The position numbers and the translations under genes are program-made. Shown piece by piece: positions 17,106 to 18,365 of a stretch of 64,000 nucleotides of DNA; the stretch's first letter is position 1; every line of letters starts with the position of its first letter. Origin of the DNA: Flavimaricola sp. (GTDB taxonomy: Bacteria > Pseudomonadota > Alphaproteobacteria > Rhodobacterales > Rhodobacteraceae); NCBI GenBank assembly GCA_020629175.1, contig JAHDDU010000006.1, positions 1 through 64,000 on the forward strand. Direction: 5' to 3'. The notes beneath the pieces were generated by a model. It had not been told where the DNA came from, made no database searches, and saw only the letters and a list, made by a program, of their open reading frames with translations.

Positions 17106-17162
17106 GCGTATGCTGCATAGCAGCATTGCAAAGACGGGCTATTGTGCAATTGCAGCATACGC
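17106..17162. promoter_or_regulatory. large nested palindrome in the mrp-DUF1127 divergent gap
   Basis: GCGTATGCTGCA (17106-17117) is the exact reverse complement of TGCAGCATACGC (17151-17162). Inside it ATTGCA (17125-17130) pairs with TGCAAT (17145-17150), and the left arm holds a smaller GCTGC-ATA-GCAGC dyad. It lies within 16972-17268, upstream of the DUF1127/sRNA transcript. It could be an operator or an RNA structure; there is no T-run. Confidence 0.5.
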
Positions 17163-17170
17163 CTATCTTA
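17143..17170 (+). promoter_or_regulatory. candidate promoter of the DUF1127-sRNA unit
   Basis: TTGTGC (17143-17148) and TATCTT (17165-17170) with a 16-bp spacer, about 98 bases before the DUF1127 ATG. In R. sphaeroides the equivalent unit is driven by RpoHI/RpoHII; these boxes do not decide between sigma70 and an RpoH factor. The -35 box overlaps the palindrome. Confidence 0.25.
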
Positions 17171-17268
17171 CTCGACAAGGCAGCAACGGTTGCCAGACGA
17201 CAGGGGCCAAGAACAGGTCCCAGACCTTAACCCCACGGGCCACCGGGCTCAGATATGAAAGTTTAGAC

Positions 17269-17484
17269 ATGGCATACGCAAGCGACACACGCACCGCCTC
17301 CACAACGATTGGTCAGCGCCTCACAGAAATGCGCGCTGCACTTCAGGACCGGATTGCCCGCAACCGGGTGTTCCGCACAACACTGAACGAATTGGGCGCT
17401 CTGTCCAACCGCGAGCTGGCCGACCTCGGCATTGCACGCAGCAACATCAAAGCCGTGGCCTTCGAGGCCGCATACGGCAAGTAA
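17269..17484 (+). CDS. ccaF1: DUF1127 small protein (CcaF1-like)
   Basis: A 71-residue protein whose C-terminal half has the DUF1127 pattern: ELGALSNRELADLGIARSNIKAVAFEAAYGK, with the typical L-x-x-L-s-d-r-e-L-x-D-i-G-i spacing. Known: in R. sphaeroides the DUF1127 protein CcaF1 (RSP_6037) is encoded directly upstream of the CcsR1-4 sRNAs, is an RNA-binding protein and affects sRNA maturation. Here the gene is followed immediately by an array of CCTCCTCCC-loop hairpins, so it is the syntenic counterpart. It should be co-transcribed with them. Confidence 0.85.
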   Translation: MAYASDTRTASTTIGQRLTEMRAALQDRIARNRVFRTTLNELGALSNRELADLGIARSNIKAVAFEAAYGK

Positions 17485-17571
17485 CATCGGGTTTCGGCGC
17501 AGCGCTCCTCCCATTTGCTGCTCCGATCCGCGCCCAACCCCTCCTCCTCCCTGGGACGGGCGCACCAATAC

Positions 17572-17604
17572 GCGGCGGCATCTCCTCCTCCCTGATGCCG
17601 CCGC
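17572..17604 (+). ncRNA. cuckoo-type stem-loop 3 (perfect 10-bp stem)
   Basis: GCGGCGGCAT pairs perfectly with ATGCCGCCGC; the 13-base loop CTCCTCCTCCCTG presents an extended anti-Shine-Dalgarno tract. One of the three most stable elements of the array. Confidence 0.75.
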
Positions 17605-17656
17605 TCAAAATCCAGCGGCAGGTGCTTTCCTCCCATATGCACCCTCCGCAACTGGC

Positions 17657-17688
17657 GCGGCGACAACGCTCCTTCCCGTTGTCGCCGC
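17657..17688 (+). ncRNA. cuckoo-type stem-loop 5 (perfect 11-bp stem, variant loop)
   Basis: GCGGCGACAAC pairs perfectly with GTTGTCGCCGC around GCTCCTTCCC. The loop has a T where the others have the second C-C-T step, so the CCUCCUCCC motif is broken here. Confidence 0.7.
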
Positions 17689-17848
17689 ACCGCCAAAGTT
17701 TTTGAGATTGCGGCCTGTCGTCCTCCCACGATGCGCCGCATGCCGGCGGCCCCGCTTTCTCCTCCCAGAGCGGTTGGGTCGCCAAACCAAACGGGCCGCC
17801 ATTGCCTCTCCTCCTCCCTGAGGTCGGCCTGCCCGTAGGTGAATAGCA

Positions 17849-17883
17849 GCGGCACCTTTCGCCTCCTCCCTGAAAGGTGCCGC
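17849..17883 (+). ncRNA. cuckoo-type stem-loop 9 (perfect 12-bp stem)
   Basis: GCGGCACCTTTC pairs perfectly with GAAAGGTGCCGC; the 11-base loop GCCTCCTCCCT holds the complete motif. It ends 20 bases before the stop codon of the convergent Lrp-type gene, and no T-run follows. Confidence 0.75.
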
Positions 17884-17903
17884 TCGCCCAATCCCCCTCC
17901 TTC

Positions 17904-18365
17904 TCAGGCGCGCACATCCTTTGGGCTGCTCATCACGATATGTGACGTGATGGATCGGACGGCCGGAACAGTACCCAAAACGTTGGTGTGGAAATTCTTG
18001 TAAGACGGCAAATCCCGGGCCTCCACGCGCAGCAGATACTCAAACGTGCCCGCAATATTGTGGCATTCCACGACCTCAGCAGCCGTCATCATAGCCCGCT
18101 CAAACCCCTCCTGGGCGGCCTTCGAATGCTCTGAAAGTCCGACTGCGACATAAACGACATAAGAGCGCCCGGTTTGCACCGGATCGAGCCGCGCTCGATA
18201 CCCTCGAATAACACCTCGGCGCTCAAGATCCTGCACCCGGCGGAGACAAGCGGAAGGCGAGAGCCCGACCTTCTCAGACAGCTCGAGATTACTGATCCGG
18301 CCATCCACTTCCAATTCGCGCAATATCGCAGCGCTGATTGCATCAATTTTATCCATGGATTGCAC
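17904..18365 (-). CDS. Lrp/AsnC family transcriptional regulator
   Basis: A 153-residue regulator: N-terminal winged-helix segment (DAISAAILRELEVDGRISNLELSEKVGLSPSACLRRVQDLERRGVI, given here in parts: DNA-recognition helix around LSPSACLRRV, residues about 35-44) and C-terminal RAM/ligand domain with NIAGTFEYLLRVEARD. It is divergent from the LysE-type exporter gene with a 63-bp gap, the usual layout of an amino-acid exporter and its Lrp-type activator. The first ATG (18365) is used; one three codons later is equally possible. Confidence 0.88.
   Translation of the reverse strand: MQSMDKIDAISAAILRELEVDGRISNLELSEKVGLSPSACLRRVQDLERRGVIRGYRARLDPVQTGRSYVVYVAVGLSEHSKAAQEGFERAMMTAAEVVECHNIAGTFEYLLRVEARDLPSYKNFHTNVLGTVPAVRSITSHIVMSSPKDVRA

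Follow-up and report, generated by a model that had tools for sequence, protein, structure and literature searches.

Does the crowded row of stem-loops behind a small DUF1127 gene of Flavimaricola sp. belong to the ccaF1-CcsR kind of sRNA locus, and how would an odd number of tightly packed hairpins be divided into separate RNAs? The stretch of DNA that was analysed (64,000 nt, hereafter the window) carries the array between the DUF1127 gene and a convergent AsnC/Lrp gene, both of which were found where the original prediction had placed them. The cuckoo RNA family and the CIN1 loci were reportedly described by Reinkensmeier and Giegerich in 2015 (cited in PMC10253847 and PMC4504443). An anti-Shine-Dalgarno (aSD) sRNA acts through exposed CCUCC loops, which pair with Shine-Dalgarno (SD) sequences and thereby block initiation. 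In R. sphaeroides, ccaF1 encodes a DUF1127 RNA-binding protein and shares its transcript and an RpoHI/RpoHII promoter with CcsR1-4 (PMC10253847, PMC8625941, PMC8307010), and CcsR1-4 are matured from this transcript by RNase E and CcaF1 (PMC10253847, PMC8625941). A DUF1127 gene with such RNAs is termed a CIN1 locus, and the RNAs form the cuckoo family, in which the loop is constant and the hairpins number two to four (PMC10253847, PMC4504443). SmelA075/A099 (PMC3927594) and NfeR1/ar14 (PMC10746234) are further RNAs of the cuckoo type.

Structure of the array

The minimum free energy (MFE) fold of positions 17485-17900 consists of exactly nine hairpins, the number originally predicted for the gap between the two genes. 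Its energy is -200.5 kcal/mol compared to a shuffle mean of -139.7 (z = -11.25), and none of 100 shuffles was as stable. All nine loops contain the aSD core, which was found on average in 0.48 and at most in 3 loops of 300 dinucleotide shuffles. A second, independent caller that places non-overlapping hairpins around aSD motifs also returned nine hairpins in the array (shuffles: mean 0.59, maximum 3), but a mean of only 0.03 and a maximum of 2 in 300 stretches of 416 nt taken elsewhere in the window; on the reverse strand of the array it detected none. The array proper extends from 17494 to 17887, a small correction of the 17495-17890 first given, and starts about 10 nt past the stop codon of the DUF1127 gene (Table 1). 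Gaps between successive hairpins are 0, 8, 10, 3, 10, 1, 2 and 5 nt, and no plain hairpins, i.e. hairpins without an aSD loop, occur between them. The stems are longer than the 5-12 bp proposed earlier, measuring 9-17 bp with internal loops included.

Table 1. Coordinates of the array and of neighbouring features in the window.
Feature	Position	Strand	Remarks
Element core, CTGCATAGCAGCATTG-N13-TTGTGCA	17113-17148	+	palindromic TGCTGCATAGCAGCA half, then TTGTGCA
Predicted RpoH-type promoter	17142-17169	+	putative; columns conserved in ~70 relatives
DUF1127 gene, ccaF1 orthologue	17269-17484	+	71 aa; PF06568, E = 4.3e-11; 117 orthologous loci
Hairpin 1 (h1)	17494-17526	+	weak; loop CUCCUCCCAUU
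Hairpin 2 (h2)	17530-17563	+	weak; loop CUCCUCCUCCCU
Hairpin 3 (h3)	17572-17604	+	strong (-22.7); loop UCCUCCUCCCU; last of predicted unit A (h1-h3)
Linker UCAAAAUCCA	17605-17614	+	AU-rich; predicted RNase E cut
Hairpin 4 (h4)	17615-17649	+	weak; loop UUUCCUCCCAUAU
Hairpin 5 (h5)	17653-17695	+	strong (-27.4); loop CUCCUUCC; last of predicted unit B (h4-h5)
Linker AAGUUUUUGA	17696-17705	+	predicted RNase E cut; sole U-run of the array
Hairpin 6 (h6)	17706-17743	+	loop CCUCCC
Hairpin 7 (h7)	17745-17783	+	loop CUCCUCCC
Hairpin 8 (h8)	17786-17840	+	long; loop UCCUCCUCCCU
Hairpin 9 (h9)	17846-17887	+	strong (-25.4); loop CCUCCUCCC; ends predicted unit C (h6-h9); no U tract
Lrp/AsnC regulator gene	17904-18365	-	convergent

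The loop motif ascribed to every hairpin is thus general as far as the aSD core is concerned, whereas exact CTCCTCCC is confined to six of the nine (h1, h2, h3, h7, h8 and h9). The loops of h4 (UUUCCUCCC), h5 (CUCCUUCCC) and h6 (GUCCUCCC) are UCCUCCC or UCCUUCCC variants. Extended loops, expected in several hairpins, occur in three (h2, h3 and h8) as CUCCUCCUCCC. Elsewhere in the genome CTCCTCCC is found at 78 sites, with no excess over a reversed control.

Between h1-h3 of the window and those of a second species of the genus, 22 of 32 pairs have changed on both sides with pairing intact, and loop and position are kept; the pairs were taken from each species' own fold, which makes the comparison supportive rather than a blind test. 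An alignment of 13 first units contains both-sided changes at 12 of 20 consensus pairs. The MAFFT alignment of the triplets partly misaligns stems, and a loop-anchored stem comparison was used alongside it. These substitution patterns support the view that the stems may be under selection as RNA.

Relation to known RNA families and loci

The ar14 model (RF02344), which represents cuckoo-type RNAs with three hairpins, scores 63.6 bits over h1-h3 (17489-17609), above its gathering score of 58.8. A second full-length ar14 alignment, to h7-h9, stays below threshold (25.8 bits), and so do the full-length alignments of the pair model CcsR1 (RF02791, gathering score 65.3) to h2-h3 (38.2 bits) and to h4-h5 (17625-17693, 24.1 bits). 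A covariance search proposed with the original prediction therefore succeeds for ar14 and fails for CcsR1. A Mrp/ApbC-type gene lies divergently upstream of the DUF1127 gene. Across the family, loci are orthologous in their order of mrp, promoter element, DUF1127 and array; mrp lies upstream in 78 of 93 loci. With this anatomy and the ar14 score, the proposed CcsR/cuckoo identity holds: the locus is of the known cuckoo/CIN1 kind (ccaF1 with CcsR-type sRNAs). What is new is the comparison among relatives, by which the packed build with its odd hairpin number is a real variant of the architecture, common to a subset of them.

The window shares with R. sphaeroides ccaF1-CcsR1-4 the succession of a DUF1127 gene and aSD-loop hairpins on one strand and the arrangement of a weak hairpin 5' and a strong one 3'; its predicted promoter would likewise be RpoH-like. 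In R. sphaeroides, however, there are four separate two-hairpin RNAs and a terminator, whereas the window has nine packed hairpins with a triplet first, lacks plain-hairpin linkers and a U tract, and scores below threshold with CcsR1. Three neighbouring hairpins with CCUCCUCCC-type loops, passing the gathering score in h1-h3, are common to the window and ar14/NfeR1, but NfeR1 is described as a trans-acting sRNA driven by a sigma70-type promoter of its own (PMC10746234), and the window unit forms part of a DUF1127 3' UTR, with six further hairpins downstream. Like other cuckoo/CIN1 members, the array has non-conserved stems, a constant aSD loop and an adjoining DUF1127 gene. The family is defined by two to four adjacent hairpins per RNA; the window has nine, which is consistent with predicted units of 3+2+4, and a relative has up to ~26.

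Array size and unit build in the family

Two partly overlapping surveys place the array among its relatives. In 110 DUF1127 loci of the family (set 1), hairpins were called throughout and array size ranged from 2 to 16. A second set, collected through the upstream DNA element instead of the protein and sharing some genomes with the first, contained 112 arrays with a median of 7 hairpins, and 29 of them had nine or more. Nine hairpins is an ordinary array size in a range of 2 to ~26; it is the build that is unusual. The largest array (locus L274, G191:C1, minus strand), also behind a DUF1127 gene, has ~26 aSD hairpins in triplet units and contains a 140-nt tandem repeat of 6.5 copies with 97% identity. 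In Mesobaculum littorinae (L096), an array of 16 hairpins is made up of 113-nt tandem repeats that are almost identical and have a plain CGGGGTCGCAAGGCCCCG hairpin as spacer.

The common unit in Rhodobacteraceae is a pair, with the weak hairpin 5' and the strong one 3' in 187 of 196 pairs (p about 2e-44). Pair-type arrays have linkers of 18-45 nt which in 161 of 166 cases contain a plain hairpin without an aSD loop, on average more stable than shuffled linkers (-10.2 vs -5.1 kcal/mol). Because the pair is the usual unit, even hairpin counts dominate (87 of the 112 arrays of set 2). The window array belongs to a compact type without hairpin-bearing linkers, which in the DUF1127 tree clusters with Loktanella, Yoonia and Cognatiyoonia, in a weakly supported clade (80/78); the compact label requires 5 changes on this tree vs 16.3 when shuffled. 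A convergent lrp gene is found at 10 of 19 compact-array loci vs 4 of 65 spaced ones. The first unit is a weak-weak-strong triplet in 13 of 18 compact but only 3 of 58 spaced arrays; for the set collected through the element, the corresponding figures are 11 of 23 and 5 of 62. Odd hairpin counts are likewise found in 13 of 23 compact vs 9 of 62 spaced arrays. These comparisons support the original suspicion of a unit structure unlike that of R. sphaeroides.

Gap length in compact arrays increases with the strength of the preceding hairpin (rho -0.42, p 2e-7). The AT content is 64% in gaps of at least 6 nt compared to 37% over whole arrays, and both trends would be expected if units close with a strong hairpin. 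For the window, the gap and energy patterns suggest units of 3+2+4 hairpins (h1-h3, h4-h5, h6-h9). Since h8 and h9 are parted only by GAAUA, a division into 3+2+3+1 is an alternative.

Upstream element and array end

Upstream of ccaF1 lies an element of ~60 bp (about 17106-17171 in the window) in a region shared among relatives. It reads ATGCA-n-TTTGCTGCATAGCAGCATTG, ~10 nt, ATTGTGCA-nn-TGCAGCA, followed by a CC(C/T)AT(n)T-like -10. Of 298 family genomes, 147 contain the strict pattern, nearly all of them in a single copy, and a reversed-pattern control gave 0; the genome analysed here has one copy, that of the window, which is intact. A DUF1127-like ORF follows 117 of 130 fetched copies, in 112 of these 117 with an array of at least two hairpins. 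Among the other 13 copies, aSD hairpins follow in 12, and the thirteenth is ended by a contig edge. The element is retained in 10 of 13 loci that lack the divergent mrp gene, from which it follows that it belongs to the array side.

The predicted promoter comprises a -35 TTGTGC (17142-17147), a 14-nt spacer and a -10 CCTATCTT (17162-17169), and lies ~100 nt upstream of the ATG. For both RpoHI and RpoHII, the decisive -35 triplet is TTG (PMC3441632), and its combination with a C-rich -10 would fit an RpoH promoter. The palindromic half of the element looks like an operator. An assignment to VtlR/LsrB, whose box is GCAT-N3-TG-N3-T (PMC7486931), was considered and dropped, with no match found by eye on either strand. 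The element matched no known regulator, and no published description of it was found in a literature search that left out the key primary papers of the locus.

At the other end, the last aSD hairpin has a run of at least 4 U in or after it in 73% of relatives, vs 5% of inner hairpins, and probably doubles as an intrinsic terminator. Such a terminator is absent at the end of the window array, where the longest T run at h9 is 1, and the same-genus relative also lacks the terminal U tract. A search of the plus strand further downstream, as far as 18460, found no terminator either; the transcript may be ended by Rho or may read through antisense into lrp. The only U-run of the array (17699-17703) sits after h5 and is possibly an attenuator or a leftover of an older array end.

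Proposed mechanism and alternatives

In view of the above, we consider it probable that this is a compact ccaF1-CcsR (cuckoo, CIN1) locus from which one stress-promoted transcript is cut into sRNAs of three, two and four hairpins that block SD sequences. The RpoH-like stress promoter, overlapped by the operator-like element, would drive the DUF1127 gene and its nine-hairpin 3' UTR. By analogy with R. sphaeroides, RNase E, aided by the DUF1127 protein, would cut the two AU-rich linkers after h3 and h5, which would free sRNAs with the strong hairpin last in each. Their exposed UCCUCCC loops could then pair with the purine-rich SD of target mRNAs and block ribosome entry, as other aSD sRNAs do, and nine loops per transcript would mean a multiplied dose. 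Repression through SD pairing is known for the AbcR sRNAs (PMC8844928); AbcR1/2 of Rhizobiales likewise use aSD motifs against SD-dependent translation, but they are neither hairpin arrays nor located behind DUF1127.

As for targets, the pattern GGAGGAG-N3-9-ATG has 44 matches in this genome vs 20 in a reversed control, a weak lead that is barely above chance. The matches include dihydrolipoyl dehydrogenase and a malate/succinate-CoA ligase subunit, both suggestive assignments from partial sequences below curated cut-offs. Two sites 31 nt apart precede a molybdenum hydroxylase large-subunit-like gene (G000:C3:4464-4510, minus strand; L277/L278), which is a candidate multi-site target. The idea that ccaF1 escapes its own loops through a missing SD was rejected as a rule: no SD precedes the window gene (-0.7 kcal/mol), but the average over orthologues lies slightly above background strength.

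Processing may instead follow the classical CcsR scheme, with four pairs and one extra hairpin, the triplet look being due to a shrunken linker. Pairs are the family rule, both in their weak-strong order and in the even counts, and CcsR1 aligns to h2-h3 and h4-h5. Set against this are the single three-hairpin ar14 match above threshold that spans h1-h3, the weakness of both h1 and h2, the triplet start of most compact arrays (13/18) and the 140-nt repeat unit in another genome, and we regard pair processing as fairly unlikely. A 3' UTR that stays uncut and captures SD-bearing mRNAs, Hfq or the DUF1127 protein as a single multivalent decoy would suit the compact spacing, without long linkers or an intrinsic terminator, and the sequence fits one 400-nt structured RNA. 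However, the R. sphaeroides orthologue is processed (PMC8625941) and strong hairpins followed by AU-rich linkers are present here, which makes a decoy unlikely.

Loss of function in this genus, by relaxation of the loops and loss of the terminator, should be considered as well. The strict CCUCCUCCC loop is present in only 4 of 9 hairpins of the window and 2 of 7 of the same-genus relative, compared to 87% in relatives elsewhere, and neither species has the terminal U tract. Yet the UCCUCCC core is retained in 8 of 9 and 7 of 7 hairpins, respectively, the stems are largely compensated (22/32) and the promoter element is intact, so that decay appears quite improbable. The recurrence of the loop motif could also be that of a REP- or attC-like repeat acting as DNA and not as RNA. 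This is contradicted by the occurrence of one site per genome, always oriented alike behind the same gene, by stems that diverge while compensatory evolution conserves their pairing, and by a reverse strand free of aSD hairpins, and we give it hardly any credence.

Beyond the preferred reading of one transcript cut into 3+2+4 units, we tentatively suggest, as a possibility short of being probable, that ccaF1 loci are evolving dosage arrays in which units of two or three hairpins are gained and lost (2 to ~26 hairpins), that the compact lineage switched to triplet-led units, and that a dedicated regulator binds the TGCTGCATAGCAGCATTG/TTGTGCA element. If this is true, the compact lineage left pair units with plain-hairpin spacers for triplet-led multi-hairpin units. 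The survey itself shows the textbook locus of R. sphaeroides to be a single case within a broad spread of array sizes and unit types. This spread offers a natural series for asking how the number of aSD loops sets sRNA dose, and the promoter element, which occurs in about one copy per genome and with the locus wherever checked, gives a handle on the regulator of this stress sRNA system.
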